This document shows, piece by piece, positions 19,240 to 38,943 of a stretch of 64,000 nucleotides of DNA. The stretch is taken from positions 1 to 64,000 of the forward strand of contig JAGLOO010000008.1 of the NCBI GenBank assembly GCA_023138875.1, given 5' to 3'. The first letter of the stretch is position 1, and each line of letters starts with the position of its first letter. A program made the translations under genes and the position numbers. The DNA is from Bacteroidales bacterium (GTDB lineage Bacteria; Bacteroidota; Bacteroidia; Bacteroidales; GCA-2748055). A model generated the notes under the pieces. That model was not told the DNA's origin and ran no database searches. It saw only the letters and a program-made list of their open reading frames with translations.

Positions 19240-20757
19240 TTAGCTCTTCTTGTTCCTACGGTGCTTTTTGTACCAGACCACAAAGCCGGTGACGGACATG
19301 AATACGGTCAGTAAACCCACCAGGGGAACGACTAGGATGTAAAACATCCCGAAAAGGGGCTTATAAATACGGCCGGTATGCACTTCCAGGGCAACATTCC
19401 AGAGCGAAATTGGGGTATTGACCAGCCTGGTGGGCATGGGGGAAAAGGACTTTCCTGCTTCGGCCATCCGGGCCCCTGTGTTGTAATCAAACCAGACCGT
19501 TCCACCGGAATATTCCTTACTCATGCCAGTAATCATATCGCGGCTCACGGGCGGGCCGGGTCGGCCCATGGGTTTCCAGGGCTCGCCGGTGATCCTGTTC
19601 ACCACGATCCCCTCATCAGGCTGCCATACAAATAAACCGGAGAAGGAACACACCAGCCAACTGCCCGGAGCAAGGGGTTCAAACACATTGATGCCCATCA
19701 CGCTCAGGGGAGGCTGGACCGGAATGCGGATCAATTCCCGTTCCAATCCGGCGTCCGCACGATAAAATCCATCCGATGTGGCTAGCAGGAAACTATCCCT
19801 TCCCTCTTCGTAGCGGATTGCCCGAAGCTTGTCGAACCAGGCATTGGGCGAATCCAGCTTTGTACCAGGGATCTTATTTACTTGCTTTGTGGCAATGGCA
19901 ATGAGCAGGGGCGGCCTCAGAAACATCCCTGTAAGGGTGGTCAGTAGCAGAAGCACCAGGGTGATCCAGCCGGTCTTATTGTGCCACTTCAGGCTCCACC
20001 TGCTGGTGCGGGAGGCCTTCTTCGCCTCACTGCCCTTCTTCTTTCTTCCCCGTATGCGGTAGCGGTTCACAAAGAAGATCAGTCCGGTGATGGTCAGGAA
20101 TATGAAGATCAGGCCTACGGCATCCACGATAATTTTTCCGGCCAGGCCGTATATTTCACCACTGTGGATTACCCAAAGGGTTTTGAACAAGCCTACCTGA
20201 TCCTTATAGCCTGCCGGCGGAGTCAAATGATGTACATGAAAATGCCCGAATGCATCCCTGATCAGTAGTTCGGAACGGGTCAGCACGAGCAGACTGTCAC
20301 CTTTCTGGCTCAGATCCGCCACGCGCTGTTTCCTGACGGGCAGTTCACATTTCTGCCACAGGCCCGACACAGCTTCAAAACGGAACAGGCCAAAATAGGT
20401 CCCGGCATACAATTCCCCTGAGGGCAGCATACTTAAGGCACTTACCTTCCGGTTGTCAATCCCTTTCGGGAAGCCGGCATTGAAATCCGAATATTCTTTG
20501 AATTCAGGTGTTGTCAACCAGATACCTATGTTACCGTAAACCAGCACCGAATCAGGGCTCAGTTGCAGGCTTCCCCGTACGGATGCGTTATTCCAGTTTA
20601 CATAGCGATGCTCCTTTGGTAGAAGTTTGCGGTTCACATCAACGCCCGAAAACGCCTTTCGGTGGTTCAATATAATGCCTGATGCTGCAAACATCAGTAG
20701 AAAGAGGGTCAGGACAATGCCAATCCACTTATGGCTTTTTCTCAGAAACTTGATCAT
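19240..20757 (-). CDS. PepSY-associated TM protein with large extracytoplasmic loops
   Basis: This 505-residue protein begins with the PepSY-TM signature (FLRKSHKWIGIVLTLFLLMF) and has further TM segments at about residues 207-228, 265-285 and 468-490. Between them lie two long extracytoplasmic stretches with repeated beta-rich segments (SMLPSGELYAGTYFGLFRFE; TSDGFYRADAGLERELIRIP; CSFSGLFVWQPDEGIVVNRI) resembling propeller-type repeats. PepSY-TM proteins accompany TonB receptors and can act as iron reductases at the inner membrane. It is the last gene of the minus-strand heme/iron cluster. Confidence 0.75.
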   Translation of the reverse strand: MIKFLRKSHKWIGIVLTLFLLMFAASGIILNHRKAFSGVDVNRKLLPKEHRYVNWNNASVRGSLQLSPDSVLVYGNIGIWLTTPEFKEYSDFNAGFPKGIDNRKVSALSMLPSGELYAGTYFGLFRFEAVSGLWQKCELPVRKQRVADLSQKGDSLLVLTRSELLIRDAFGHFHVHHLTPPAGYKDQVGLFKTLWVIHSGEIYGLAGKIIVDAVGLIFIFLTITGLIFFVNRYRIRGRKKKGSEAKKASRTSRWSLKWHNKTGWITLVLLLLTTLTGMFLRPPLLIAIATKQVNKIPGTKLDSPNAWFDKLRAIRYEEGRDSFLLATSDGFYRADAGLERELIRIPVQPPLSVMGINVFEPLAPGSWLVCSFSGLFVWQPDEGIVVNRITGEPWKPMGRPGPPVSRDMITGMSKEYSGGTVWFDYNTGARMAEAGKSFSPMPTRLVNTPISLWNVALEVHTGRIYKPLFGMFYILVVPLVGLLTVFMSVTGFVVWYKKHRRNKKS

Positions 20758-20819
20758 CGAAACAATTCAGGGTATATAACCACGAAAGTATTGGTTTGTT
20801 GCAACTATCCGGGTTTGAA

Positions 20820-21431
20820 TTATTCAAAGTTCCGGCTTCCGTCGGGCTGGTAAAGATAGCGCATGGTCACATAGCCGGTCTGGGATTCATCGTTGTAATA
20901 ATCCTTCAGCCAGATCTTCACATATTTTTCATCTGCGGTCTTGATGACATAAATATTGTCGTTGATGGTATAGGTGGGAGGCGGACCCTCAAAGGTAAGC
21001 CAGGTGGCCAGTACTGTATCGCCGGGGACATTGATGTACTCCCAGACGCCGGATTCCTGAATGATGCCAATGGAATCGTTCAGGGAATATCCACTTTCCG
21101 GAGCCTCTGTCACAGATTCAAACCCAATTGTGCCCATATTCAGGCTTCCTCCCATTCCGGGTCCGGAGGTACCGCAGTTTACTCTCACATCGTAGCGATG
21201 GAATCCAATGTCCCAGGCATCGGAAGTACTAAAATTGCTTACTGTCACTTCTTTGTCTTCTGAGAAGGAAAAATAGACCCACGTCTCATAGGCTGTGGCA
21301 TCCAGAGTAACAGTTTTGATTTCAAGCTCCTGTTCATTGGGATCAGGGTCAGGATCCTCTGTTTCACATGATATGAAAGACAGAACAAACCCTAAAATAA
21401 GAAAGTACATATACTTGCTTGTTGTTTTCAT
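20820..21431 (-). CDS. HmuY-like heme-binding lipoprotein
   Basis: This 203-residue protein has a lipoprotein signal (FLILGFVLSFISCETEDPD) and the HmuY family layout: TAYETWVYFSFSEDKEVTVS, SDAWDIGFHRYDVRVNCGTS, a TWLTF segment and a C-terminal strand set (YVIKTADEKYVKIWLKDYYN, then TGYVTMRYLYQ). HmuY proteins sit on the cell surface, strip heme from host proteins and pass it to a TonB receptor. I chose ATG 21431 over an upstream in-frame ATG inside the TonB gene because it starts the signal peptide. It lies directly downstream of the TonB receptor gene. Confidence 0.82.
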   Translation of the reverse strand: MKTTSKYMYFLILGFVLSFISCETEDPDPDPNEQELEIKTVTLDATAYETWVYFSFSEDKEVTVSNFSTSDAWDIGFHRYDVRVNCGTSGPGMGGSLNMGTIGFESVTEAPESGYSLNDSIGIIQESGVWEYINVPGDTVLATWLTFEGPPPTYTINDNIYVIKTADEKYVKIWLKDYYNDESQTGYVTMRYLYQPDGSRNFE

Positions 21432-21438
21432 GATTGCT

Positions 21439-23724
21439 TTATTTTGATTTATGAATAGACCTGTAAAGTTTTTCAATGGAGAGGTCAAGTTTTACAAAAT
21501 AACTTCTTCCCGGCGAGGTTGATGTGTTGAAGGTGATCATGCCGGCCGTATAATCGAAGAGGTTCTCAATACCAACCACCAGGTTTACTCCCTGGGGAAA
21601 ACGCTGGGCCAGGGACAACCTCCAGGTGGTATAGCCCTCATAGTGAACCGGGTACCAGGCTTCGATGAGTTCTCCCCGGTATTCAATTTCTTCCATGACA
21701 TGGTATTCCTTGGCCCCGATGTACTTGCCGGAAATATTTGCCGTAAGCTGGTAACGGGGCCTGGTGAAACGGTATTCCATCTGAAGATTGGCCGTATGCG
21801 GGCTCACACTGGAAAGGCGAACACCCTCCTGGTGATTCTGATCATTTACGTAAGAATAAGCACCTTTTAATACAAAGGGTTTAAACAAACGAAGCTTCAT
21901 GAGGAAATCCATTCCTTTCAGGCTCGAGGAGGCAATATTCTGGTAGCGATAAACAGTCTGGTTGTCCTCCCATTGACCTTCTATTTTATTTTTGAAGTTG
22001 TTGATGTAGGCATTCAGGGAAGCATTCAGTTTGGGCCGTGTGAATTCAAGGGAAGCCGAATAGTAGTTATTTGTTTCGGGTTGAAGGTCCTCGTTTCCCA
22101 TGATCATAAACATTCCCAGGTGGTCCCATCTCATGTAAAGTTCCTTTAGGCTGGGGGAGCGGTAGCCAGAAGCATAATTTAGTCGAAGGCTCAGTGGAGC
22201 CATGCGGTACATCAGAGAAAGCTTGGGTGTAAAATAACCCCCGAAGGCAGAGTGATAGCCTCCCCGGAGTCCCAGCACAATATCAAGATCTTCCCGGGGG
22301 GAAATCTCATCCTGAAGAAAAAGAATGGTCGAGGATGCCTGCTTATCGATCAGATCTCCATAGACAAACATATCGGTGAGCAGTGATTCATGCAGGTACT
22401 CCAGCCCGGCCACCACTTGCTGGATCTTCCCGGGGTTGAACTGAGTAATCAGTTTTGGATTCAGAAAGTCGTTGCTGTAATTAATGTCTTTTCGGTGAAG
22501 CTTCTCCAGATAATCGTACTTATTGTAGGTGTCGGAGTGGAAGGAAAATATCCAGGAAGCCGATCCCATACTTTGAAGACTGGCTTTTAGCCCATAGGAC
22601 AAGTCATTAAAAAACTCATGCTTCTTGTCCTCCCGGTAGAAATCATACTTATGCCGCTGGTAATAGCTGCCATAGGCCTCAACAGAAAGCCTCTCGTTGA
22701 AATTATAGCTGAATCTCTGCTTCACCATGAAGTCCGATTCCCCTTCAATGGAAGTGGGATCTTCACGGAGACTCTCATAAATCGTGGTATCGGGATCGAT
22801 AAACTCCTTGACCAGGGAATCCCGGTCAAAAAGCTGGTAGCCATCACTGCTGTGAAGCGACAAGCTGGTATTCGAATGCAGGTTCCCCAGATTGAATCCA
22901 AGCACAGCATCGGCATTCAGGTTGGGCCTGTCCAGGTTCTTCCAGAATTCATAGTTCTCGTCATTTTCATCCGGAGCCGGGTAGTTCTTCTCATTGAATC
23001 CAGCGTATTTCACCGAAACGGATCCGTATGCTTTCTCCTTTCTCTGCTTGCTGATGATATTGATCACTGCTCCCATGGCCTGGGATCCGTACAATGCCGA
23101 TGCAGCACCCTTCACAATTTCGATGCGTTCAATATCCGCTGCATTCAAACGGGAATAATCCACATTCCCCCGGGTCTCTCCCGCCATCCGTTCTCCATCG
23201 ATCAGGATCAGCACATTCCGGCCCTCCAGGCCCTGCATATTGATGTCCGTGCTGGTGCCATGCCGCTGGAACTCAATGCCGGGCAGTTCGGCCTCCAGGA
23301 CAGCCTGAACATCGGCATAGCCCCCGCTTTCAATCTGCCGGGATGAAATAAGTTGCGTAATTACAGGGGCGTCCTTCAGGGCCTTTTCCGTTCGGGTAGC
23401 TGTAATCACCACCTGCTCCAGCTGGAGGGGATCTGCTTCCATGAAGAAGCTAACAGATTCTCCCGGATCAATGGTATCAACCAGGGCCTTATATCCCACA
23501 AAAGAGATGGTCACAAGCGATCTTTCACGAAGGATGTTCGGGCATTCTCCGCTAAGCGATGTAATGGAATATTTCTGTACTCCGGTGGTCATGCCCTTGA
23601 AACTAACACTGGCATAAGGCACAGCCTGGCCGCTCTCCTCGTCCATCACCCTCAGTTTAGCTTCCTGTGAGAAGCACAGTCCGCTCACCAGGAGCAGGAA
23701 AAATATGAATATCCGAATCCTCAC
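21439..23724 (-). CDS. TonB-dependent receptor (HmuR-like)
   Basis: This 761-residue protein has a signal peptide, a carboxypeptidase-regulatory-like N domain (YASVSFKGMTTG ... TISFVGYKALVDTI), a plug (VITATRTEKALKDAPVITQL ... VLILIDGERMAGE ... IEIVKGAASALYGSQAMGAV) and a barrel (NYASGYRSPSLKELYMRW). This is the architecture of Bacteroidota heme receptors of the HmuR type. It starts at GTG 23724, sharing one base with the TAG of the upstream HmuY-like gene, and is followed by another HmuY-like gene. It imports heme or a related chelate across the outer membrane. Confidence 0.87.
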   Translation of the reverse strand: MRIRIFIFFLLLVSGLCFSQEAKLRVMDEESGQAVPYASVSFKGMTTGVQKYSITSLSGECPNILRERSLVTISFVGYKALVDTIDPGESVSFFMEADPLQLEQVVITATRTEKALKDAPVITQLISSRQIESGGYADVQAVLEAELPGIEFQRHGTSTDINMQGLEGRNVLILIDGERMAGETRGNVDYSRLNAADIERIEIVKGAASALYGSQAMGAVINIISKQRKEKAYGSVSVKYAGFNEKNYPAPDENDENYEFWKNLDRPNLNADAVLGFNLGNLHSNTSLSLHSSDGYQLFDRDSLVKEFIDPDTTIYESLREDPTSIEGESDFMVKQRFSYNFNERLSVEAYGSYYQRHKYDFYREDKKHEFFNDLSYGLKASLQSMGSASWIFSFHSDTYNKYDYLEKLHRKDINYSNDFLNPKLITQFNPGKIQQVVAGLEYLHESLLTDMFVYGDLIDKQASSTILFLQDEISPREDLDIVLGLRGGYHSAFGGYFTPKLSLMYRMAPLSLRLNYASGYRSPSLKELYMRWDHLGMFMIMGNEDLQPETNNYYSASLEFTRPKLNASLNAYINNFKNKIEGQWEDNQTVYRYQNIASSSLKGMDFLMKLRLFKPFVLKGAYSYVNDQNHQEGVRLSSVSPHTANLQMEYRFTRPRYQLTANISGKYIGAKEYHVMEEIEYRGELIEAWYPVHYEGYTTWRLSLAQRFPQGVNLVVGIENLFDYTAGMITFNTSTSPGRSYFVKLDLSIEKLYRSIHKSK

Positions 23725-24734
23725 TACAGTCTCATCACCTCCATTGTGGTGGTCCCCTTTATCCCGCTTTCATCATAGAAACTGATGAAGCGAAGTTTGT
23801 AATAATACCCGTCAATATTTCTGATGATATAATTTTTATCGGGGACAATGGTATAGAGCTCATTGTCAAAGCTATAGAATTTCCAGTCGTAGCCAATGAT
23901 ATCGAGGTCTGAGGAGAAAGTATGCCGGATGGTATCCTGCAGCTTGATGCTGAAAAAATCACTGCTATCCATGGCAACTGACATTCCATAGGGATTGATC
24001 AGGACCCCTGTTACGAGGTAGGGATACTGCTCCCCGTCGTCGGTTATCAGCATGGTGGAATACCTGGTGCACTTCAGGCTCCATCGGTCCTTTTCCGGTG
24101 CAACCGGGACTGTGCCCGAATCAAAAGAAAAATATACGTAGCTAAAGTCCGAAGCTTTCTCAATGAGGAGGGTCTGCTCATCAGAGCCATCCAGGGCTGC
24201 ATGTCTCAACAGGTAGTTCCCGTCTTCGATGTCAAGTGTGGTTTTTCTCTTGCCCGTATTCTGCCCCTCTGGCCCCAGGCCCAGGTCGATGACGTAAACG
24301 TATTGGAGCGATTGCAGGGAGTCGCCCGACTTATCGTACCACTGCCCAATGGCTGTACTGTCAGGATCTCCGCCGGAGTGGTCAAAGTTCATCTCCAGTC
24401 CCTCGTCCGAATCCACCTGCTGAAAGCTGGTATCCATGGAATTACCTGCAAGCATCATTTTTGCTGAATTGAGGATTACATGCCATTCGTCCACTTTACA
24501 TTCAAAGGCCAGGTCCCAGTCATAAATGGAATTTGATGCCTGGATAGAATAGGTGGAAAGATCAAGAAAGACCTGTGTATGATAGCTCTCCCCCAGTTCC
24601 ACCGACAGGGTTTCCAACTCTCCGGATTTGTGCACAGGAACAATCTCATCCTCTTCGAAGCAGGAGGTTAATAGCAGAGAGGCAGCCAGGAATACGGGCA
24701 GAAGGGGGCCTGTCAGATGCTTTCTAGCTGTCAT
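23724..24734 (-). CDS. HmuY-like lipoprotein, two-domain
   Basis: This 336-residue lipoprotein (AASLLLTSCFEEDE) is about twice the length of a single HmuY domain. It shows two family-like halves: NSIYDWDLAFECKVDEWHVI with a matching C-terminal strand region, then DFSYVYFSFDSGTV, DRWSLKCTRYSTMLI and NYIIRNIDGYYYKLRFISFY. Both neighbours are TonB receptor genes; it overlaps the upstream one by 11 bases. Likely a surface heme-capture protein with two binding modules. Confidence 0.75.
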   Translation of the reverse strand: MTARKHLTGPLLPVFLAASLLLTSCFEEDEIVPVHKSGELETLSVELGESYHTQVFLDLSTYSIQASNSIYDWDLAFECKVDEWHVILNSAKMMLAGNSMDTSFQQVDSDEGLEMNFDHSGGDPDSTAIGQWYDKSGDSLQSLQYVYVIDLGLGPEGQNTGKRKTTLDIEDGNYLLRHAALDGSDEQTLLIEKASDFSYVYFSFDSGTVPVAPEKDRWSLKCTRYSTMLITDDGEQYPYLVTGVLINPYGMSVAMDSSDFFSIKLQDTIRHTFSSDLDIIGYDWKFYSFDNELYTIVPDKNYIIRNIDGYYYKLRFISFYDESGIKGTTTMEVMRL

Positions 24735-26943: not shown

Positions 26944-26960
26944 TCTAAGAATTAAACTCA

Positions 26961-27000
26961 TTTAAAAAGTGCCTGTCCGAAATGCAGGTTTCGGACAGGC
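26961..27000 (-). terminator. Rho-independent terminator on the minus strand
   Basis: GCCTGTCCGAAA (26971-26982) and TTTCGGACAGGC (26989-27000) form a perfect 12-bp stem with a 6-base loop. Read on the minus strand the stem is followed by ACTTTTT. It lies 12 bases beyond the stop of the 27013 gene and upstream of the TonB receptor gene, where it would end or attenuate the transcript. Confidence 0.82.
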
Positions 27001-27012
27001 CCGTACTCACAA

Positions 27013-28269
27013 TTACTGTTTCAGAAACTTGTTATGGCTTACGTAGTTTTCTGCTTCTACAATAATCGTATACATTCCAGTTTGAAGGTGACCTATAGAG
27101 AGGGCATGCTGATCGAATCCCCCGGCGGTGATGGCCTGCTGATGAACCATCTGTCCGGCCGTGTTATACATACGGACCCGGACATCGCCCCGGGCATCCA
27201 GTACAATGGTGATGTGATCGCTGGCAGGATTGGGGTAAAGCTCTAGCATGCTGATCTCAAGTGTTGCCCCAGTGGATGTGGGTGCATCCAGGAGCTTCTG
27301 TTCAAAGGTGTATTTGCCTTCCGAACTACCCGTGAAAGCGGTGAAATACATCTTCCAGTAGGTGGAATCTGTTCCTTCGGCATTCATGACCTTTGCAAAG
27401 AAAACCCGGTCATCATCCAACACATAGGCCATGCTGCCCATATCAAAGGTTTTCCAGTCGGACCCGATAACACTGATGGTATCTTTGAAGTCGCTTTCGG
27501 AAAAGGTTTCGTAATCTGCCTGCGCAACCCCGCTCACTTCCTGAAGGCTTACCCTGGCAGAATTGGCCAGTACACCGGTCACATAGTAGGGGATCGTATA
27601 GTCATAGTACTTGGTAAATACCAGGTCCCAGTCCGCCGAGGTGGATTCATTCTCCACGACTTGCTTTGATTCCAGGGAATAGGAAATGTGGTTCTTATCC
27701 ATGTAGGGATCAGCCTCAAGGGTGTCGGTATGCTCATCGGTTCCATCCAGGTTGGCAAACTTGAAGATCCAGGTATTGGCACCTGAATTGGGATCCTTAT
27801 CCACTATCCAGAGTTTTTTATAGCTCCCGGAAGCGGTAAGGATCACATACAGGCTGTCTCCTACAATATGGTGATTTGCCATGCTGTAACGTCCCCAACC
27901 GTAATCAAAATCATCCCCTTCCACCTGGTTCTGCATAAAGGCTCCTTCATCCCATGATGCAATGGAATTATACAATGGAGTCCAGGTCATCCCGGTGGTG
28001 TCCAGTGTTTCCCATGCGCTGATATCCCCACCCGTGTAGGTGTAGAGTTCAACCATTGCTCCGCTATTGGCCAGAATATTGATCCCGTACCTGTTCGTTG
28101 GAAAACTCAGGTCCCATGCGGTTCTGTCCGATGTGGAAACTGTACCGCCTGTGAAGCTGTAATAGGCTTCATTTGCATATCCTGCACCTGTGACCACGTC
28201 GACAGTTGACTGTGCAAAAGCACTCATCACAAATACGCATGCTGCTAAAAGTGTAAAAGTTCTCTTCAT
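27013..28269 (-). CDS. Two-domain HmuY-like protein with T9SS C-terminal signal
   Basis: This 418-residue protein has a standard signal peptide (TLLAACVFVMSAFAQS), not a lipobox. Two HmuY-like modules follow: EAYYSFTGGTVSTSDRTAWD with a later WIVDKDPNSGANTWIFKFAN, and TSADWDLVFTKYYDYTIPYY with YWKMYFTAFTGSSEGKYTFE. The last ~75 residues are a type A T9SS sorting domain (LELYPNPASDHITIVLDARG ... GMYTIIVEAENY). It should therefore be secreted or surface-anchored by the Por system instead of by lipidation. It is the last gene before the terminator and is two bases from the flavin/Fe-S protein gene. Confidence 0.8.
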   Translation of the reverse strand: MKRTFTLLAACVFVMSAFAQSTVDVVTGAGYANEAYYSFTGGTVSTSDRTAWDLSFPTNRYGINILANSGAMVELYTYTGGDISAWETLDTTGMTWTPLYNSIASWDEGAFMQNQVEGDDFDYGWGRYSMANHHIVGDSLYVILTASGSYKKLWIVDKDPNSGANTWIFKFANLDGTDEHTDTLEADPYMDKNHISYSLESKQVVENESTSADWDLVFTKYYDYTIPYYVTGVLANSARVSLQEVSGVAQADYETFSESDFKDTISVIGSDWKTFDMGSMAYVLDDDRVFFAKVMNAEGTDSTYWKMYFTAFTGSSEGKYTFEQKLLDAPTSTGATLEISMLELYPNPASDHITIVLDARGDVRVRMYNTAGQMVHQQAITAGGFDQHALSIGHLQTGMYTIIVEAENYVSHNKFLKQ

Positions 28270-28270
28270 G

Positions 28271-29602: not shown

Positions 29603-29618
29603 AAGTTTTGAATGCGTG

Positions 29619-30536: not shown

Positions 30537-30563
30537 ATGCGCTTATTTAGATTAAATCAAGTG

Positions 30564-30595
30564 CAAAAATAGTCACCGAATCTTCCGCATACAAT
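30564..30595 (-). promoter_or_regulatory. Bacteroidota-type promoter for the chelatase operon
   Basis: On the minus strand, ATTG (30595-30592) and TATTTTTG (30571-30564) are separated by 20 bases, matching the -33 TTTG / -7 TAnnTTTG consensus of Bacteroidota except for one base in the -33 box. The start codon is 27 bases downstream of the -7 box. It would drive 29619-30536 and probably the two following genes. Confidence 0.5.
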
Positions 30596-30648
30596 CCCAA
30601 ATAGTAGTGATTTTATGCCTACGAAGGAATCCCTGTCAGCAAATGAGA

Positions 30649-32382
30649 TCAGTCCATAGACATCTGTCTGTCAACCATCCCGGCAAATATACCCCCTTCA
30701 AGAATCAACTTCTGCGGATCCCCGTTTTCCACTACTTCCCCCTTGTGCAGGACCACCACTTTGTCTGCATTGGCTACGGTGCGCATGCGGTGGGCAATGA
30801 TGATCACGGTCTTGTCCCGGATCAGCTCGGAAATCCCGGCCTGGATCAGGGTCTCATTTTCTACATCTATGGATGCTGTGGCTTCATCCAGAAGCACAAT
30901 AGGTGCATCCTTTAGAAGAGCGCGGGCAATTGAAATACGCTGACGCTCACCGCCCGACAGGGTTTCCCCGTTCTCCCCGATTACTGTCTGATATCCTTCC
31001 GGCAGGCGGGATACAAACTCATCGCAACGGGCCAGGCGGGCCACCTTCACTACTTCTTCATCGGAGGCATCCCGGCGTCCCAGGCGGATGTTTTCCATTA
31101 CAGAAGCATTGAAGAGGACCACATCCTGGAAGACTACAGAATAGTGTTTCAACAGCACTTCCGGATCAATGCCACTGATATCTTCCCCTCCTAGCAGGAT
31201 CCGGCCGCAACTGGCATCCCAGAAGCGGGCCGCCAGCTTGGCCGAGGTGGTTTTCCCTCCCCCAGAGGGCCCTACCAGTGCAGTGATTTCCCCCTGTCTG
31301 GCTGTGAAGTTCACATCACTTAATACCTGCTTGTCGCTTTCATAGGAGAAATCTACATGTTCAAAAGTGATATCGAAACTGGCTGGCGAGAACTCCTCCA
31401 GGCCCTGCTGTACGGGAAGAGCTTCCATTTCGCGCATGCGCCTGATGCGGATATCCAGGTAGAAAAGAGCGGCCAGACTATTAAAGACCTCGTTTACAGG
31501 TTCGTAAATACGGGAAGCAATCATTAGGAAGATCAGGAAAATGAACAGATCAATGGTCCCGGCCGTCAGCAGCCTGGCACCCACGATGATAACCGTTGCC
31601 AGGCCAAGTTTGAGCAGAACTACAGAAACATTCAGCAGCATCCCATTCAGGAGTTCCCCGCTGATCAGGCTTTTTTCATAGCGGCCCAGTTTATTCTCCA
31701 GTCTATCCCGGTATCTGTGCTCCAGCCGGTAGGCCTTGATCTCCTGGATGGTGTCCAGGCCTTCCTGGATATGCTCGCTCACATCCCTCTTCCGATCATA
31801 AATGACCCGGTGGTTCTTCATTTGGAATTTCTTGGAAAGGAAAAAGGCAAAAACTGCCAGGGGAACCACCCAGAACAGGGCCAACGAAAGCTGCCAGTTA
31901 TAGAAGAAGAGACCAATGGCCATGAGCAGGATGCTGGCTGTAGCAGCAAACACCTGGGGTACCGCATGTGAAAAAGTATGCTCCAAGTCAGTGGTATCAT
32001 TCATAATGGTCGCCGTCAAGTCGGACAGGTTTTTCTCCCCGAAAAAGGCCAGGGGCAGGATGCGTAGTTTTTCGGCAAGATTTAGCCTCCTGTTGGCACT
32101 TTCAGTATAGATGGCCAGATAGGTGCTTTTATACTGAAATACGGCAATCAACCACATGACCGCCATAAAGGCCAGGGCCAGAATAACATAGTACCAGAGA
32201 CCGTGTGCAGGTGCAGATGCCGGATCAAAAACACCGCGCAGATAATCATCCAGGAAGAGAAAGATAAATACAGCCGGAAGCATCAGGGACAGGTTCAGCA
32301 AAGTGGTCCAGGCCACCGCCTTTAGAAAATCCACGGCGCCCTTTCGGGTCATGGCAAAACGATCCATCACAAAACTAAGCAT
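30649..32382 (-). CDS. ABC exporter half-transporter (IrtB/YbtQ-like)
   Basis: This 577-residue protein has an N-terminal six-TM exporter domain and a C-terminal ATPase with Walker A (GPSGGGKTTSAK), Q-loop, signature LSGGERQRISIAR, Walker B (IVLLDEATASID) and the H-loop AHRMRTV. It overlaps the upstream half-transporter gene by 8 bases and a GGAGGTGA sequence precedes its ATG, so the two likely form a heterodimer. Pairs of this type in TonB/iron loci (IrtAB, YbtPQ) have an exporter fold but import siderophores or act on heme; a plain exporter role is also possible. Confidence 0.82.
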   Translation of the reverse strand: MLSFVMDRFAMTRKGAVDFLKAVAWTTLLNLSLMLPAVFIFLFLDDYLRGVFDPASAPAHGLWYYVILALAFMAVMWLIAVFQYKSTYLAIYTESANRRLNLAEKLRILPLAFFGEKNLSDLTATIMNDTTDLEHTFSHAVPQVFAATASILLMAIGLFFYNWQLSLALFWVVPLAVFAFFLSKKFQMKNHRVIYDRKRDVSEHIQEGLDTIQEIKAYRLEHRYRDRLENKLGRYEKSLISGELLNGMLLNVSVVLLKLGLATVIIVGARLLTAGTIDLFIFLIFLMIASRIYEPVNEVFNSLAALFYLDIRIRRMREMEALPVQQGLEEFSPASFDITFEHVDFSYESDKQVLSDVNFTARQGEITALVGPSGGGKTTSAKLAARFWDASCGRILLGGEDISGIDPEVLLKHYSVVFQDVVLFNASVMENIRLGRRDASDEEVVKVARLARCDEFVSRLPEGYQTVIGENGETLSGGERQRISIARALLKDAPIVLLDEATASIDVENETLIQAGISELIRDKTVIIIAHRMRTVANADKVVVLHKGEVVENGDPQKLILEGGIFAGMVDRQMSMD

Positions 32383-34150
32383 GGCTCACCTCCTTTCTTC
32401 CCAGGGTCCACCTGACCGATTGTTTGTATTCCTTCCACATTTTTGCATAGAGTCCCTTCTCTTGAAGCAATTCCTCGTGTTGCCCCTCTTCGACAATCTT
32501 CCCCCGGTTGATTACAATGATCCTGTCGGCATCCATTACCGAACTCAAGCGGTGGGCAATCATCAATACCGTTTTTCCCTTGCCCAGCTCCCTGAGGCCC
32601 TGCTGTATAAGGTGTTCGTTCTCCGGATCGGCAAAGGCCGTGGCCTCATCCAGCACAACAATGGGTGCATCCTTCAACATGGCCCTTGCCAGGGCCATAC
32701 GCTGTTGCTCCCCTCCTGAAAGATAGGTACCTTCAACACCGATACGGGTATCTAATCCATTTGGAAGCCGCTCGAGGATCTCCTCACACTGAGCCATCAG
32801 CAAGGCCTTCTGCATCTCTGCTTCCGTAGCATCCGGCTTCCCAAAGAGCAGGTTCTCCCGGAGACTGGTTTTAAAAAGCCGTGTATTCTGAAACACGAAG
32901 GATATGGAGTCCATGAGATCTTCATTAGCCATGTTGCGGACATCCACACCGCCAATCCTTACACTCCCCTCATCCACATCCCAGAAACGGGGTATCAGCC
33001 TGGCCATGGTGGTCTTTCCCCCGCCGGAAGCCCCCACCAGGGCAACACGACTTCCCTCTGGAACTGTGAAGCTAACCCCATCCACAGCTCTCTGTCCGCT
33101 TCCGGGATAACTGAAACTCACATTTTTAAACCGGATATCAAAAGTTTTGGGTCTGGAACCCTCGGTTGCCTCGGGGAGCAGGGTGCCGGATAGGAGTTCT
33201 TCCATCCGATTAATAGCTTCCGTGGCCTGAGCACCGGCCTGGTTCAGGTACATATTCCGCATGATGGACTGGGCGAAAACCGGGGTAATAAGAATATAGA
33301 AGAACAGGTTCAGCACCACTCCGGCCAGGTTCCCGGTATTGCCAATCAGCAAAATAGCCACCGGAACCAGGAAAAAGGCAAAGCCGTTTATCATGACGGT
33401 GTAGGTGGACATGGATTTTTCCCAGTTACGGGTGTATTCAGACACCATGTCCCGGTAACGGAGAATACTGGCATGGAAATTTTTAAAGGAAAACACAGTC
33501 TGCTGGAAGACCTTCACCACGGGGATCCCCCGGACATATTCCACCGCTTCGGTATTCATCTCTTCCAGTGAATTCATATACTGGTTCATGAAATACCTGC
33601 CCTTTCCTCCCATCATGAAGGCCATAACCCCCATGGCCGAGAAAATGGGTACCAGGCAGGCCAGGCCAAGTCTCCAGTCAAAGACAAAGATCAGTACCAG
33701 GGTTCCCAGGGGCGCAAGGATGGTCCCGGCCAGATCGGGAAGCTGGTGAGCCAGAAAACCATGGGTAATACTTACATTGTCATCTATGATCTTCCGAATG
33801 CGCCCTACGGTTTGCTGGTTGAAAAAGCCCAGGGGCTGATCAAGGATCCGTTTCATAGCATCCCCCCTCATTCGCGACTCCACACGAAAGGCTACCAGGT
33901 GCGATACGGTCAGGGCCAGGAAGTAGAGTACGACCCCGGAAACTGCTGTTCCCACCGCCCACCAGGCATAGGTGCTGATTTGTTCATGTGCCTCATCAGC
34001 CGCCACTCTGAATAGTATACGGGCAATGAGCCAGATAAAAATGTAGGGCAGCATCCCGCACAGGGTGCTGAGGGCTGACAGGACCATGGCTCCTGGCAGG
34101 AAGCCCCGGCGGCCCTTCAGATAGGTCTTGAGCATAAATAAGATCTTCAT
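32375..34150 (-). CDS. ABC exporter half-transporter (IrtA/YbtP-like)
   Basis: This 591-residue protein has the same layout as its partner: a six-TM domain (LSALSTLCGMLPYIFIWLIA) and an ATPase with Walker A (GASGGGKTTMARL), signature LSGGEQQRMALAR and Walker B (IVVLDEATAFAD), where the usual Ser-x-Asp after the Glu reads Phe-Ala-Asp. I chose ATG 34150 over an upstream in-frame ATG at 34252 because the hydrophobic N terminus starts there. It is the first gene of a two-gene unit reading away from the HmuY/TonB pair at 34507. Confidence 0.82.
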   Translation of the reverse strand: MKILFMLKTYLKGRRGFLPGAMVLSALSTLCGMLPYIFIWLIARILFRVAADEAHEQISTYAWWAVGTAVSGVVLYFLALTVSHLVAFRVESRMRGDAMKRILDQPLGFFNQQTVGRIRKIIDDNVSITHGFLAHQLPDLAGTILAPLGTLVLIFVFDWRLGLACLVPIFSAMGVMAFMMGGKGRYFMNQYMNSLEEMNTEAVEYVRGIPVVKVFQQTVFSFKNFHASILRYRDMVSEYTRNWEKSMSTYTVMINGFAFFLVPVAILLIGNTGNLAGVVLNLFFYILITPVFAQSIMRNMYLNQAGAQATEAINRMEELLSGTLLPEATEGSRPKTFDIRFKNVSFSYPGSGQRAVDGVSFTVPEGSRVALVGASGGGKTTMARLIPRFWDVDEGSVRIGGVDVRNMANEDLMDSISFVFQNTRLFKTSLRENLLFGKPDATEAEMQKALLMAQCEEILERLPNGLDTRIGVEGTYLSGGEQQRMALARAMLKDAPIVVLDEATAFADPENEHLIQQGLRELGKGKTVLMIAHRLSSVMDADRIIVINRGKIVEEGQHEELLQEKGLYAKMWKEYKQSVRWTLGRKEVSHA

Positions 34151-34506
34151 TTTCCTTTGTCTTGAGTCTCGCTTACAGATTGTATTTCCCCGTTTCTCAT
34201 CTACTCTTCCCGGAGCAGCCTGAAACTTCCTGCCATATGCAGCCTTGTCCAATGTTCATTCACCGATTGCCTGAGTACGATCATTGTTTTTGATTTTAGA
34301 AGTTTAAAGTAACAGGCAGACAAGGGATATTGCAATCATTATTAATGGTGAAATAATCCCTGGCCCTTCATCAGATTTGGGGAGCGTGTCTTACTCCCCA
34401 TTAATCAGGAGGAATATCCCGAAATACCCTCAATTATTGGGATTGGATTATCTCTGCATGTTCACTTCTTTTGTTATTCGAATTCAACTTAAAAAAATCA
34501 CAAACA
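34151..34506. other. Divergent intergenic region of the heme/iron island
   Basis: These ~355 bases separate the ABC pair (minus) from the HmuY-like/TonB pair (plus), so promoters for both must lie here. I see a small dyad GGGGAG/CTCCCC (34379-34399) and A/T-rich DNA around 34290-34350, but no convincing -33/-7 pair and no clear Fur or other operator sequence. Confidence 0.4.
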
Positions 34507-35205
34507 ATGAAAACGAAATCATGGTTATTCCTTGCATTATTTACCTTCCTGGCCGGGACGGTATTTGTGGCATGTGACGAAAACGGAAACAACGATCCCG
34601 ATCCCAATGAAGGGAAATTCGAAAGCCTGGAATCCCCCTACCTTATCTGTGCCAACCGAAATCCAGGCGGTGTGGGATTCGACTTTGAGTACAGGGAGGA
34701 CACTGGAGGTGGAAACAACATCGATTCCACAACGGTAACCGACTTCGAAGAGGACATTGTGATCAAGACCATAAAGGGAGAAAAGCCCGATGGCAGCCTG
34801 GGCGGAGCCCCATACATCAAGTTATACGACAATTCGGTGGAAGCGGTGAACTATTCCAGCGTGGATCCATCCTGCACAGGCATGACCGGATTTAACGCAT
34901 TAAGCAGTTCGAATATACAGAGCTATTCCCTGCAGAATGATGATGAAAGCTTTGATGTTTCGACTGTACCCACCGGGGACACAGGAAAACCCATCATGGC
35001 GGACCTGATGACCGAATACGGTAAACTGGCCATTGGCATCAAATGGAAAACTGCCGCCAACAACAAAGTGGCCGATGACGAACCTGTCTGGATCATCAAG
35101 ACCCGCGACGGACGCCTTGTTAAACTCATTGTAAGCGATTTTCCCGCCGATCCGGCTCCTACTTCCACCGGCTTTATTTCCATCAGTTGGGATTTTGTAG
35201 ACTAA
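34507..35205 (+). CDS. HmuY-like lipoprotein
   Basis: This 232-residue lipoprotein (FTFLAGTVFVACDENGNN) resembles HmuY in size and in its C-terminal strands (DDEPVWIIKTRDGRLVKLIV, STGFISISWDF), which parallel VIKTADEKYVKIWLKD of the protein at 20820. The middle part has the segment GGVGFDFEYREDTGGGNNID. It precedes a TonB receptor gene by about 60 bases. Assignment to HmuY rests on C-terminal similarity and context and is less certain than for the other copies. Confidence 0.65.
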   Translation: MKTKSWLFLALFTFLAGTVFVACDENGNNDPDPNEGKFESLESPYLICANRNPGGVGFDFEYREDTGGGNNIDSTTVTDFEEDIVIKTIKGEKPDGSLGGAPYIKLYDNSVEAVNYSSVDPSCTGMTGFNALSSSNIQSYSLQNDDESFDVSTVPTGDTGKPIMADLMTEYGKLAIGIKWKTAANNKVADDEPVWIIKTRDGRLVKLIVSDFPADPAPTSTGFISISWDFVD

Positions 35206-35266
35206 GATGAAATCCAGATCATTTACACCCCAGATCAGGGATCATGTGGCAGAAAAACAGGTTTAA

Positions 35267-37597
35267 ATGAGTATTCTGAAAACCAGGAACCGGTTCGCCG
35301 CAGGTGGACTGGTTCTTGCAATGGCATTGATGATCGTTCCTTTGTCTGCTGCAAAGGCACAGGACGCACTCCGGGTTGTGGGACAGGTGGAAGACAGGCA
35401 GAGCGGAAAGCCCGTGGCCTTTGCCAATATATCCGTCCGGAACAGTCCGCATGGCACTTCCAGCGGGGAGGACGGGAGCTTTGAAATTAAAATCAAAAAG
35501 ACGGAAGGCACCGTATTGGTAATCAGTCATATTAATTTCTACAAACAGGAAGTCAGGCTTGGATCCACTACACCCGGCAGTGATCTCCTCGTTAAACTGG
35601 AACCCAAATCCACTCAGATATCCGATGTGGTCGTATCCGCATCCCTGTATGAGCAGCAGAAGCTTAAACTAACCCGGTCGGCCAGTGTGATCTCCCACCG
35701 GCAGATCGTGGATAAGATGAACTCGAACCTGACCGACATGCTGTCGGCCACTCCTGGCTTCACCCAGGTCTGGGAGTACCATTCGCCCATTATTCTCCGC
35801 GGACTGAATTCCAACCGGCTGGTCATCATGAAAGACGGCAACCGGCGTATTGGCACCTTTCCTGGCGGATATTTCGGGCAGGACATGAACATCTACGATA
35901 CCCGGAAAGTGGAAATAATCAAGGGGCCCGGCTCGGTCATCTACGGTAGCGGGGCCATATCAGGGATCATCAATGTACTCAGTAATACTCCGTTCGGGCA
36001 AGGAAAGACCTCCGCCCACATCCTGTCCGGATATGGAAGCAACAATAACGAATTCCTGGAAATGGCCCGGGTCTGTCACAAGGGAGAAAGCTTCGGAATC
36101 TCTGTAAACGGGAAATACCGGAAGACCAGGAACATGGTCTACGGGAACGGGGAGGAAGCGGAGAACAGTGCTGTGGAGGACCGCGACCTGGCCCTGAATA
36201 CCGGGGTGAAGCTGGGGAAAAACCAGGAACTACTCCTCAATGCAAGCTACCACTACGGCGACTGGGGAAAGCCCCGGGGTTTCAACGGCCCCACCAAATA
36301 TTTCACCAGGATCAATAACCTGGAAGAAAACCTGCATGCCGATTTGGGTTATTCCTGGACCCCGGGAGGCATTGTAGAAGCCGTGCATGTGAATCTGTAT
36401 TACGATGACGGCATGCGCGACTACCACCAGTATCGCTACAGTGAGATCAGCGGTAATCTCAGTTCCCTGGATGTGGTCCACTATAAAAGTAACTATGGAG
36501 GAGGCCGCCTGTTCGCCATCCTGAAGCCCTGGTCCGGCAACCGGCTCAGCCTGGGAGCGGATGCCTACCTTTTCCGACTGGACAATCCCACCACTGTATA
36601 CGATTACTATTACGGGACCGAGGGAACCATTGATGGATATACCAACGCCGGACAGCAGGACATCGGCATCTTCCTCAACGATGAATGGGAAGTTAGCAAT
36701 AAGCTTCGCATTGTTGCTGGTATCCGCTATGACATGGCCACCGTCCAGGAAGGGGAAAGCACCGGCGGAGATGAGCGGACACAGATCCGGAAAGCCCTGA
36801 GCGGAAATACCGGACTGGTATTCTCCCCCACCCAACACAGTCACCTCTCCTTCAACGTAGGACGGGCATTCCGCATGCCCACTGCCGAGGAACTCTTTAC
36901 CCAGATCATTTCCTGCAAGGGCATTAAGGTGGGTAACCCGGAACTGAGACCCGAGTACAGCTGGAACCTGGACCTGGGCTGGAGGGGAGAAACCCTGGAA
37001 AAAAAACTGAATTACGACCTGAGCCTCTTCCATATCCGCCTGCATGACTTCATCAACGAAGCTCCTGTGGCCGATGACCCGGATGTGGATTTCACCTATA
37101 TCAATACCAATGCCACCCTGTCGGGAGGCGAGCTTTCCCTCTCCTACCGTTTCGATGGCGTGTTTTCCCCGGCCAATGCGCTCTATGCCGGACTGGGGGC
37201 TGCCTACGTATTCGGGATTGATCTGTCGGACGAGGAAAACGCCCCCCTTTTCGGAATTCCTCCCTTAAACACCACCCTGGAGCTTCACTACCGGGGCACG
37301 GTAAATAAGACCTGGCTAACCGGCTACAGCCTGAAAGCCGAGTGCGAAATGGCCGCAGCCCAGGACCGCATCCCAACACCCCCGGAAGGAACCGAAGGAG
37401 GGCCCTGGGGATATATTCCTTCCGATCCCCATGCGGTATTGAACCTTTCGGCCGGACTAAATTCCAACGCGCTTCCCGGTCATCCCAAGCTGCGCGTCAT
37501 CGTGAATAACGTATTTGATTTGGATTATCAGCCTTATGGTTCCTACATTCCTGCCATGGGACGGAACATCAAGCTGGTTCTCACCTTCGACATTTAA
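35267..37597 (+). CDS. TonB-dependent receptor
   Basis: This 776-residue outer-membrane receptor has a signal peptide ending near AAKAQ, a carboxypeptidase-regulatory-like domain (RVVGQVEDRQSGKPVAFANI), a plug (RSASVISHRQIVDKMNSNLT ... IIKGPGSVIYGSGAISGI) and a barrel with the conserved FNVGRAFRMPTAEELFTQ box and a C-terminal strand ending LVLTFDI. It differs from the two minus-strand receptors and may take another chelate. With the upstream HmuY-like gene and the downstream OB-fold and PepSY genes it forms a plus-strand operon. Confidence 0.87.
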   Translation: MSILKTRNRFAAGGLVLAMALMIVPLSAAKAQDALRVVGQVEDRQSGKPVAFANISVRNSPHGTSSGEDGSFEIKIKKTEGTVLVISHINFYKQEVRLGSTTPGSDLLVKLEPKSTQISDVVVSASLYEQQKLKLTRSASVISHRQIVDKMNSNLTDMLSATPGFTQVWEYHSPIILRGLNSNRLVIMKDGNRRIGTFPGGYFGQDMNIYDTRKVEIIKGPGSVIYGSGAISGIINVLSNTPFGQGKTSAHILSGYGSNNNEFLEMARVCHKGESFGISVNGKYRKTRNMVYGNGEEAENSAVEDRDLALNTGVKLGKNQELLLNASYHYGDWGKPRGFNGPTKYFTRINNLEENLHADLGYSWTPGGIVEAVHVNLYYDDGMRDYHQYRYSEISGNLSSLDVVHYKSNYGGGRLFAILKPWSGNRLSLGADAYLFRLDNPTTVYDYYYGTEGTIDGYTNAGQQDIGIFLNDEWEVSNKLRIVAGIRYDMATVQEGESTGGDERTQIRKALSGNTGLVFSPTQHSHLSFNVGRAFRMPTAEELFTQIISCKGIKVGNPELRPEYSWNLDLGWRGETLEKKLNYDLSLFHIRLHDFINEAPVADDPDVDFTYINTNATLSGGELSLSYRFDGVFSPANALYAGLGAAYVFGIDLSDEENAPLFGIPPLNTTLELHYRGTVNKTWLTGYSLKAECEMAAAQDRIPTPPEGTEGGPWGYIPSDPHAVLNLSAGLNSNALPGHPKLRVIVNNVFDLDYQPYGSYIPAMGRNIKLVLTFDI

Positions 37598-37619
37598 ATT
37601 TCAATTAATCATCAGAGCC

Positions 37620-38162
37620 ATGAAAATAAAACTGCTTTACACCTGTCTCATCCTGCTTTCCCTGTGTATCCATTCCTGTAATTCAGGAAGTAAATCCCCC
37701 GGCAGTAGCCAGGAAGCCAAACAGGCGCCCCTGCTTGAATCCGAGTACCTGGGTGTGGGAGAAGTATTCCTCAGGGGAAAGGAGCTGGCCGGTCAGGAAA
37801 TCAAGGTAAAGGGAATCGTGGAGCACGTATGCAAGCATACCTGGAAACGTTTTAAAATCGTGGATGCGGATGACAGCGCATTCATCAAAGTGGAGCTGGG
37901 GGAGGACTTCCCCACCCTTGATGCCTCCCTCCTGGGACATACCGCCTATGTAAGGGGGAAACTGGTCCCTGTACAAATGGATGCAAAGGCAGTGGAAGCC
38001 TGGGAAAAAAAGACAAGGGAAAACCACAAGGGAGAAGAGGAAACGGCCCATTTCAAGGAAGAGATCGCCATGATCCAGGAAATCCATCAGCAGATCGTAA
38101 ACGGGGAGATCCCTTTTCATATGGCCCTTACCCTGGAAGCCACTTCCTATGAGATCAGGTAA
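37620..38162 (+). CDS. Lipoprotein with OB-fold-like domain
   Basis: This 180-residue protein has a lipobox (LLSLCIHSCNSG). Its middle part (GQEIKVKGIVEHVCKHTWKR, then FIKVELGEDF and AYVRGKLVPVQ) has the strand order of a bacterial OB-fold such as DUF4920 or tRNA_anti-like proteins. The Cys-Lys-His in VEHVCKHTWKR could bind a metal or heme. The start ATG 37620 is 20 bases after the TonB receptor gene; the last 14 bases overlap the next gene. Its job in iron uptake is not known. Confidence 0.6.
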   Translation: MKIKLLYTCLILLSLCIHSCNSGSKSPGSSQEAKQAPLLESEYLGVGEVFLRGKELAGQEIKVKGIVEHVCKHTWKRFKIVDADDSAFIKVELGEDFPTLDASLLGHTAYVRGKLVPVQMDAKAVEAWEKKTRENHKGEEETAHFKEEIAMIQEIHQQIVNGEIPFHMALTLEATSYEIR

Positions 38163-38688
38163 AAAAAGCCTGCGACAATGGCTCAGAGAGCTGCACCGCG
38201 ACATCGGCTACTTTGCGGTAGGCATGAGCCTGGTCTACGCCCTGTCGGGTTTCTTTCTTTCCCATAAAAACGTCTTTACGGCCACCCGGACAGAAAGCGC
38301 TGAACTAAGTCTGGCAACCGGAATGGACCTGTCAGAGTTCAGGGAAACCATGGACAGCGAATCGGATGTGGATCTCACCCACAGCAGGCTGAAGGGTGAA
38401 TACATTAGCTTCTATTTTGAAGGCGGGGAAGGTGATTATCATGTCCCCACCGGCCGGGTTCAATACGAACGCTATTTCAGGCGAGGCCTGATGCTCTTCA
38501 TCAACCAGTTACACCTGAATCAGCGAAAAGGCTGGGTGGCCGTGGCCGATGTGTTCTCCTTCCTGCTGGTGTTCCTGGCCCTGAGTGGACTTGTAATGGT
38601 TAGGGGAAGGAAGGGTTTCCTGACACGGGGTATCTGGTTCATGTTGCTTGGTTTCATTCTTATCCTTATCTTCATCTGGATTCAATAA
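38149..38688 (+). CDS. Short PepSY-associated TM protein
   Basis: This 179-residue protein begins with the PepSY-TM type helix (LRELHRDIGYFAVGMSLVYA), has an extracytoplasmic stretch with YHVPTGRVQYERY, and ends with a pair of TM helices around LFINQLHLNQRKGWVAVADV. Its length fits the small PepSY_TM_like family that sits beside TonB receptors. It is co-translated with the upstream lipoprotein (14-base overlap). A role in iron reduction or release at the inner membrane is inferred. Confidence 0.7.
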   Translation: MRSGKKSLRQWLRELHRDIGYFAVGMSLVYALSGFFLSHKNVFTATRTESAELSLATGMDLSEFRETMDSESDVDLTHSRLKGEYISFYFEGGEGDYHVPTGRVQYERYFRRGLMLFINQLHLNQRKGWVAVADVFSFLLVFLALSGLVMVRGRKGFLTRGIWFMLLGFILILIFIWIQ

Positions 38689-38697
38689 ACACCCGAC

Positions 38698-38943
38698 ATG
38701 AAACTACTTAATACCGGGAGCCATACAGTGGCCCAACCCTCCACCTTCATGATCACCCGGGGCGTAATGAAAGGCTATATAAAACGCCCCCTGCTCCTGC
38801 TGATCGCTTCCAAACTCAGCTTCCCGAGATACCGCAAAGGTATTAACCTGGACCTGCCAGTTGATTTCATTGATGACTACGGTTTCCTGGCCTGGCTCTA
38901 TCTCCGCATGCAGAAGAAGATGGAAAAGGAAATCAAGCGATGA
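38698..38943 (+). CDS. Unrecognised 81-residue protein
   Basis: I do not recognise it. It is basic (KGYIKRPLLLLIASKLSFPR, C-terminal RMQKKMEKEIKR), with one short hydrophobic patch and no signal. It follows the PepSY gene by 9 bases and so belongs to that operon. Its last five codons and stop lie inside the 190-bp repeat, so the natural C terminus may have been replaced when the repeat arrived. Confidence 0.5.
   Translation: MKLLNTGSHTVAQPSTFMITRGVMKGYIKRPLLLLIASKLSFPRYRKGINLDLPVDFIDDYGFLAWLYLRMQKKMEKEIKR

Follow-up and report, generated by a model that had tools for sequence, protein, structure and literature searches.

What does a metal chelatase do outside the cytoplasm, directly in front of a membrane redox protein? 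The question is raised by a heme and iron island on contig JAGLOO010000008.1 of a Bacteroidales bacterium (assembly GCA_023138875.1), of which positions 1 to 64,000, hereafter the window, were analysed. On the minus strand, the gene of an exported CbiX-type chelatase is followed after 16 bp by that of a flavin/iron-sulfur (Fe-S) inner-membrane protein on the same strand, and comparison across genomes shows close, conserved linkage of the exported chelatase with a single transmembrane redox protein, the two making up one unit. On balance, the two probably act as a two-part extracytoplasmic reductive heme de-chelatase, in which the membrane protein would reduce the heme iron and the chelatase would free Fe(II). 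The features of the pair are given below, with chelatase residues numbered in the full protein, the alignment itself starting one residue later.

29619-30536, minus strand: two-domain CbiX-type chelatase, exported (lipobox), 305 amino acids; Pfam CbiX 59.4 bits, cut-off 22
30483-30485, minus strand: codon of Cys18, the predicted lipidation site in the export signal scan; sequence MKLRLFIIVASSLLLFSC
30396-30398, minus strand: codon of His47, kept in 80/80 aligned rows
30288-30290, minus strand: codon of Glu83 (MEYTEPSI motif), kept in 80/80 aligned rows
30189-30191, minus strand: codon of His116, kept in 80/80 rows and aligned with CfbA/CbiX-type chelatases
29865-29876, minus strand: WCGH motif of the second domain, residues 221-224; Trp, Cys and His in 80/80 rows, Gly in 79/80
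28271-29602, minus strand: flavin/Fe-S inner-membrane protein; FMN_bind 39.5 bits and Fer4_5 38.5 bits, cut-offs 22
29003-29014, minus strand: SGAT flavinylation motif, residues 197-200; G, A and T in 27/27 rows, S in 25/27
28628-28645, minus strand: first CxxxCP motif, residues 320-325; Cys and Pro in 27/27 rows
28358-28375, minus strand: second CxxxCP motif, residues 410-415; Cys and Pro in 27/27 rows

The genome scan, with the exported chelatase as query, gave 118 relatives, the best 80 of which (L007-L086) were used for counting, with L003 (29% identity) and the weak matches L004-L006 excluded. By called open reading frames (ORFs), a PepSY membrane protein lies directly downstream in 44 and a flavin protein in 23 of the 77 loci with a called chelatase ORF, and a profile-based six-frame recheck places a same-strand partner downstream in 75 of the 80 loci: PepSY in 49, flavin in 26, both in none and neither in five. 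Among these five, the contig of L037 stops 199 bp past the chelatase, and in L036, L058 and L072 (Chloroflexota) and L057 (Ignavibacteriota) the chelatase starts at the catalytic domain and has no export signal. The export script found a lipobox in 42 loci, another signal or transmembrane (TM) segment in 29 and none in nine, five of which (L011, L074, L064, L019 and L042) were reassigned as exported by eye, the signal lying in another frame in L019 and L042. The final call thus has 76 exported chelatases and four that are not, with a partner in 75/76 of the former and 0/4 of the latter. The coding gap to the PepSY protein is at most 20 bp in 44/44 loci, the regions touching or overlapping, and that to the flavin protein is at most 15 bp in 17/23, the remaining six standing at 92 to 305 bp. 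Of 395 genomes drawn separately from the phylum, ten have the chelatase, the window's own included, and in the other 9/9 a PepSY protein is adjacent, although this draw partly overlaps the 80 loci (the G110 copy is L034). The association of the chelatase with its membrane neighbour is far beyond chance.

A tandem arrangement of chelatase, PepSY protein and second chelatase copy occurs in six genomes of the separate draw (G228, G248, G272, G366, G397 and G413; L091-L096 and L098-L103), which represent one family near L061, and also in L061 itself (Chlorobiota). The second copy is the lower-scoring one and may act on another substrate.

The chelatase carries the lipobox LFSC ending in Cys18 at its N-terminus, and the Pfam CbiX match, which spans part of the N-terminal half, is found at E <=0.001 in 49/49 aligned members. 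An AlphaFold2 model built with 48 relatives (predicted local distance difference test, pLDDT, 89.4; predicted template modelling score 0.82) aligns with class II chelatases along its entire folded length, with rows within 1 Z of each other treated as tied. Among the matches listed, the best is SirB (5zt8, Z 19.5, 239 residues, root-mean-square deviation 3.3), followed by Salmonella CbiK (Z 16.3), the periplasmic Desulfovibrio CbiK (2xvz, 16.2), Porphyromonas gingivalis FetB (9b86, 15.7) and ferrochelatases at about 14 to 16. The Pfam match thus places the protein among the class II (CbiX/SirB-type) chelatases, and the model shows their two-domain fold. His47, Glu83, His116, Cys222 and His224 are invariant in all 80 aligned rows, which comprise the window and called ORFs above 150 bits and are not identical with the 80 loci. 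From the known chelatases CbiX, CfbA and SirB, we take His47, Glu83 and His116 of the N-terminal domain to be the metal site; by sequence this domain is nearest to the nickel/cobalt chelatases CfbA/CbiX.

The flavin protein consists of one N-terminal TM segment, an FMN_bind domain and a TM bundle bearing the two CxxxCP motifs. FMN_bind and Fer4_5 are both present in 27/27 aligned relatives, no further domain was found at E 0.01, and the protein ends at residue 443. Among the matches listed, the flavin mononucleotide (FMN) domain has the RnfG/NqrC fold (Z 11.5 to 9). From loop charges and hydropathy, the CxxxCP motifs are predicted to face the cytoplasm and the FMN domain to lie outside; the AlphaFold2 model is of moderate quality (pLDDT 72.5), and the membrane part was taken from hydropathy alone. 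The PepSY partner appears to have three TM segments, as judged from the hydropathy of a paralogue in the window (38149-38688), and in its family His16 is kept in 46/47 rows and His39 and His122 in 47/47 each, a pattern that fits a transmembrane b-heme protein (PMC11334425). No useful relative came from PDB sequence searches with the flavin protein, hmuy2 or the small PepSY protein.

The two partners fall in different Pfam families, yet outward electron movement across the membrane is common to both kinds (PMC8238504). This is the main reason for reading the unit as a reductase with a chelatase. The role of redox partner can be taken by either of two unrelated proteins whose activity is of one kind. 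In one locus (L011:10917-14588, an uncultured Persicobacter) the flavin protein and the following TonB receptor form a single open frame of 1223 amino acids with a second signal-like stretch inside, perhaps through a lost stop codon or an assembly error, or otherwise an odd fusion of inner- and outer-membrane proteins.

In a tree of 89 chelatases, built quickly without bootstrap and with several long branches including that of the window, the flavin-partner rows form one group (28 labelled rows and the unlabelled L037; Shimodaira-Hasegawa-like approximate likelihood-ratio test, SH-aLRT, 99). The partner label changes twice in all, against a mean of 27.4 with shuffled labels, and the flavin partner arose once on this tree. 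Since the group spans Bacteroidota and Gammaproteobacteria, the chelatase-flavin pair was probably transferred between phyla as a unit. The four export-less rows also form a group of their own (SH-aLRT 100), which lies within the PepSY rows; the chelatases of L036, L057, L058 and L072, lacking both export signal and partner, are thus one clade.

In the window, the pair belongs to a run of ten genes on the minus strand, from 34252 down to 19240, which by profile search of the ORFs reads two ATP-binding cassette (ABC) half-transporters, chelatase, flavin/Fe-S protein, hmuy3, receptor 2, hmuy2, receptor 1, hmuy1 and a four-TM PepSY protein. The remaining features of the island are:

30649-32382 and 32375-34252, minus strand: two ABC half-transporters directly upstream of the chelatase; general ABC domains
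27013-28269, minus strand: hmuy3, HmuY-like with a type IX secretion tail; HmuY 31.7 bits, Por_Secre_tail 44.3 bits
24724-26961, minus strand: TonB-dependent receptor 2 (tbdt2), a Pfam match; nearest models TonB-B12 and TonB-hemin, both weak and far under cut-off
23724-24734, minus strand: hmuy2, HmuY-like lipoprotein, last gene of the cassette hmuy3-tbdt2-hmuy2; HmuY 57.0 bits
21439-23724, minus strand: TonB-dependent receptor 1; best model TonB-hemin, 162.7 bits, below the cut-off of 316.85; also in the G042 cluster (L113)
20820-21488, minus strand: hmuy1, HmuY; 106.4 bits, over the curated cut-off
19240-20757, minus strand: four-TM PepSY_TM protein of FoxB-like architecture, last gene of the run; PF03929 91.2 bits, above cut-off
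34471-38688, plus strand: second module, by Pfam and model matches: a weak HmuY-like lipoprotein, a hemin-type TonB receptor, a lipoprotein and a three-TM PepSY protein
34471-35205, plus strand: weak HmuY-like lipoprotein; HmuY 18.2 bits, cut-off 27
35267-37597, plus strand: TonB receptor (Pfam), of hemin type
38149-38688, plus strand: three-TM PepSY protein, PepSY_TM_like_2; same family as the alternative chelatase partner

Most of this inventory had been anticipated by a sequence-only reading of the island. The genes, the SGAT and two CxxxCP motifs and the lipobox lie where it had placed them; Pfam matches bear out its three TonB receptors, lipobox-bearing CbiX-type chelatase and two PepSY membrane proteins, and the FMN_bind and Fer4_5 domains with the RnfG/NqrC fold agree with its NosR/RnfG-like protein. 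Three of its four HmuY-like proteins score above cut-off and the fourth falls short. Its label of an IrtAB-like ABC pair found no support: the half-transporters match MsbA, CydD, HepA and other exporter-type NCBIfam models, all under their curated cut-offs, in a comparison without an IrtAB-specific model. ABC matches in the 80 loci are likewise low-scoring only, at 26 to 68 bits.

Two details of the island stand apart. The lipoprotein at 37599-38162 (plus strand), flanked by the genes of the hemin-type receptor and the small PepSY protein, has no Pfam family and contains a striking HVCKHTWKRF stretch; it might carry heme or a metal. A terminator-like hairpin of 12 pairs with a T-rich tail (26971-27000, minus strand) separates hmuy3 from receptor 2 and could reduce the expression of receptor 2 relative to the secreted HmuY protein.

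Linkage of the chelatase and its partner to heme-capture genes, whose absence in relatives the sequence-only reading had named as refuting it, is found but is weaker and modular. A TonB receptor stands within 6 kb of the chelatase in 48/80 loci, HmuY in 39/80 and either or both in 51/80, counts that are lower bounds because some contigs are short. By phylum, a receptor or HmuY is present in 37/47 loci of Bacteroidota, 7/8 of Pseudomonadota, 4/6 of Nitrospirota, 2/2 of Myxococcota and 1/1 of unstated phylum, and none was found within 6 kb in Planctomycetota (0/6), Verrucomicrobiota (0/4), Chloroflexota (0/3), Chlorobiota (0/1), Ignavibacteriota (0/1) and Ca. Eiseniibacteriota (0/1). The cassette hmuy3-tbdt2-hmuy2 occurs without the chelatase in 9/12 further stretches; one of the nine is a second place in the window's own genome, and the others come from eight relatives, with two of these stretches cut or split. 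HmuY as an obligatory part of the system was therefore rejected, being near only 39 of 80 chelatases and standing in this cassette also without one; the HmuY and receptor genes are separable cassettes. As the chelatase-flavin pair and the cassette are found apart elsewhere, the window joins two modules.

The nearest relative, G042 (61% identity), carries the flavin partner, and its cluster runs chelatase, flavin protein, DUF1007, NicO, receptor 1, a small unlabelled ORF, HmuY1 and a four-TM PepSY protein, the homologue (599.8 bits) of 19240-20757, which ends the cluster as it ends the run in the window. Other iron-related genes recur nearby: a ChaN-type heme-binding protein follows hmuy2 in six marine-type Bacteroidota loci, a Fur-family gene is present in three loci (immediately before the chelatase in both Runella) and a ferritin in three. 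In G001, of the window's genus, a stretch from which the chelatase is absent (L117:2-5716) has hmuy1 and receptor 1 close to a gene similar, on visual inspection, to the DUF6787 gene of the window (18555-18872), and on this ground the long array of the window may be an expansion at a shared site. Small membrane proteins of the HsmA family (TIGR03987) also lie near HmuY/receptor genes or the pair, below cut-off at L118:3013-3393 and above it at L014:11730-12107; L119:4898-5272 resembles them and has no family above cut-off.

Fur-box-like sites are in excess in part of the loci. In 16 loci of Pseudomonadota, Myxococcota and Nitrospirota, 12 Fur-box-like sites (>=15 of 19) were counted against 1.0 expected from shuffles, in 8/16 loci, a count made after the window result with an assumed consensus and with two overlapping sites in L014 counted separately. 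One such site (16/19) lies 196 bp before the chelatase match in L015, and others stand ahead of the receptor gene in L017 (19/19), L064 and L050. An automatic test at operon starts was positive in 2/15 loci; in several the walk ran to the contig start, and the whole-locus count is the fairer one.

The genome of the window is 99.64% complete, and its single CbiX is the exported chelatase. Profile searches of this genome gave no match to ALAD, the ferrochelatase HemH or CobN/HmuS (PF02514: 0), which makes endogenous tetrapyrrole synthesis an unlikely role for the chelatase; the host's tetrapyrroles probably come from outside, barring a route outside the markers tested. One FeoB and one ApbE are present, so that an enzyme for flavinylation is at hand, and G042 likewise has one ApbE. 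Among the chelatase genomes, FeoB is found in 11/11 and ApbE in 9/11, including both genomes of the flavin type, the two without an ApbE match being of the PepSY type. The chelatase was not found in the window's genus (0/17 genomes) or family (0/10), where several genomes are incomplete. A simple replacement of HmuS is not supported, with a CobN-family match in 3/41 relatives and neither system in most; G104 and G186 have five CobN-family matches each alongside the exported chelatase.

These observations can be assembled into a scheme. First, HmuY-type proteins and TonB receptors would, by their families, carry heme into the periplasm. Next, the inner-membrane partner would move electrons across the membrane, using Fe-S centers with covalent FMN in the case of the window and b-type hemes where the partner is a PepSY protein, and would bring Fe(III)-heme to the Fe(II) state. 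The membrane-tethered chelatase could then hold the reduced heme in its class II cleft, distort and protonate the porphyrin and free Fe(II). Finally, protoporphyrin IX (PPIX) would stay whole and outside, and FeoB would import the Fe(II). All chemical steps are inferred, partly by analogy with HmuS. That the reductase serves the chelatase is the strongest of these deductions and the direction, removal or insertion, the weakest. The sequence-only reading had foreseen tetrapyrrole capture, electron delivery across the inner membrane and extracytoplasmic metal chemistry, an outline which fits, but the conserved unit is the two-gene pair, with the cassette, the ABC pair and the genes at 34471-38688 outside it. 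The broader claim, of an exported class II chelatase that a dedicated transmembrane reductase drives in reverse, present in eight phyla or more and in two interchangeable versions, the newer of which arose by one switch and then spread between phyla, as an independent, non-CobN counterpart to HmuS, seems to us evenly balanced.

Several points weigh against heme iron removal by the pair. Class II chelatases normally insert metal. In 29/80 loci, among them all six Planctomycetota and all four Verrucomicrobiota, neither a receptor nor HmuY lies within 6 kb, and the window shows no excess of Fur sites (seven at >=13/19, against 6.4 expected). The G042 cluster includes a NicO-type nickel/cobalt transporter and DUF1007, yet these occur in 0/80 loci. 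Other forms are under-sampled, since the search began with an exported chelatase and the counts cover the best 80 of 118 relatives, and the exported-looking chelatase relative L003 (2-3313) has no such membrane partner on its short contig. In L003 the chelatase stands between a receptor like 35267-37597 and genes for DUF2023 and a flavodoxin, and it is possibly another variant with a flavodoxin link.

Among the other explanations, one keeps the pair together and turns the chemistry around: the chelatase would exchange or insert a metal, for example manganese into a captured porphyrin, as proposed for P. gingivalis FetB, and the reductase would just keep the metal or heme reduced. FetB is a structural neighbour of the model, and a 2026 review (PMC13402209) describes Mn-PPIX that depends on FetB and does not settle whether FetB de-metallates heme; FetB is, however, absent from the sequence matches of the chelatase profile. 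Mn(II) insertion needs no conserved transmembrane reductase, whereas Fe(II) heme does, and the Fur-box-like sites, FeoB and ChaN point to iron. This explanation therefore seems unlikely, and iron removal more likely than insertion, a judgement of substrate and direction that, unlike the observed pairing, is one of inference.

It is similarly improbable that the two proteins only share an iron operon and act separately, with the membrane protein as a reductase of ferric siderophores or free Fe(III) and the chelatase-like protein as no more than a heme or metal carrier. FoxB and related PepSY proteins do reduce ferrisiderophores (PMC13038864), and the island holds two further PepSY proteins. The immediate adjacency in 75/80 loci, the joint absence of export signal and partner in four loci, the mutual exclusion of the two partner types and the conservation of the metal-site residues nevertheless argue for a joint function.

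A cobalt or nickel tetrapyrrole as substrate in place of heme is less probable still. The affinity of the N-terminal domain to CfbA/CbiX, a receptor 2 whose B12-model score slightly exceeds its hemin-model score, each far short of the cut-off, and NicO with DUF1007 in G042 would suit it, but the latter genes are missing from all 80 loci and HmuY is near 39 of them. Control by cobalamin was also rejected, as a scan of seven of the 80 loci gave one cobalamin riboswitch, 9 kb from the chelatase, and none was found in the window. A mislabelled chelatase of ordinary siroheme, cobalamin or heme biosynthesis, already disfavoured, is hardly credible. The nearest curated models are sirohydrochlorin chelatases, though below cut-off, but export signals in 76/80 loci, the membrane redox partner and a nearly complete genome with no ALAD, HemH or CobN match all speak against it.

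Taken singly, the elements of reductive heme iron removal by the pair are already known: FetB/IhtB is an exported chelatase of a heme locus, HmuS carries out reductive de-chelation, and both PepSY and flavin proteins serve as transmembrane electron carriers. The open-access literature searched yielded no dedicated chelatase-redox pair in two versions, subscription journals and preprints being mostly outside that search. With such a pair, extracytoplasmic reductive de-chelation becomes testable with two proteins, and a function can be offered for some flavinylated and PepSY membrane proteins with unknown partners; if true, genes now named sirohydrochlorin chelatase would change meaning.

FetB/IhtB of P. 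gingivalis, part of a heme-uptake locus, and the periplasmic CbiK of Desulfovibrio are exported class II chelatases like that of the window and have a similar fold, but both are missing from the PDB sequence matches of the chelatase profile (FetB gave none at E 0.01) and SirB is closer in fold. The metal residues of CbiK lie in the C-terminal domain, unlike the conserved His47 and His116 of the N-terminal domain here, and we know of no membrane reductase paired with FetB/IhtB or CbiK.

Strict NosR has a C-terminal ferredoxin domain, which was not found in the flavin protein at E 0.01. The likeness is rather to the flavinylated NapH-like proteins (NosR, PceC/RdhC) described in PMC8238504, which have an extracytosolic N-terminal FMN_bind domain and a TM bundle with CxxxCP motifs and feed electrons to extracytosolic enzymes; their known partners are respiratory enzymes, and a chelatase partner is unmentioned in the searched text of that article. 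The alternative partner and the two PepSY genes of the island share PepSY_TM Pfam families and His residues on both membrane sides with the ferric reductases FoxB, CrpH and VciB. The protein at 19240-20757, with four hydrophobic segments and His 9, 32, 259 and 460 at segment ends by hydropathy, fits the FoxB type, defined in PMC13038864 by four TM segments with His at both membrane sides; the alternative partner, in contrast, has three and stands directly behind an exported chelatase.

A counterpart in the proposed reaction is HmuS of the hmu operon, for which reductive, NADH-dependent heme de-chelation has been demonstrated (PMC12583661). The proposed reaction of the pair is the same, with reductive iron removal leaving PPIX whole, and HmuY and TonB receptor genes are near in both; compared with hmuYRSTUV, the window has HmuY with a TonB receptor, but a CobN-family protein is absent from the genome. 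HmuS is, moreover, a large CobN-type protein that uses NADH through an unknown electron path, whereas in the window the chelatase is of class II and its membrane redox partner is set genetically. For HmuS of P. gingivalis, a coupling to membrane redox components has been suggested without any being named (PMC13227078). In the present system the arrangement of the genes singles out a candidate donor, which comes in two forms of different chemistry and sits next to a chelatase that is small and tractable.

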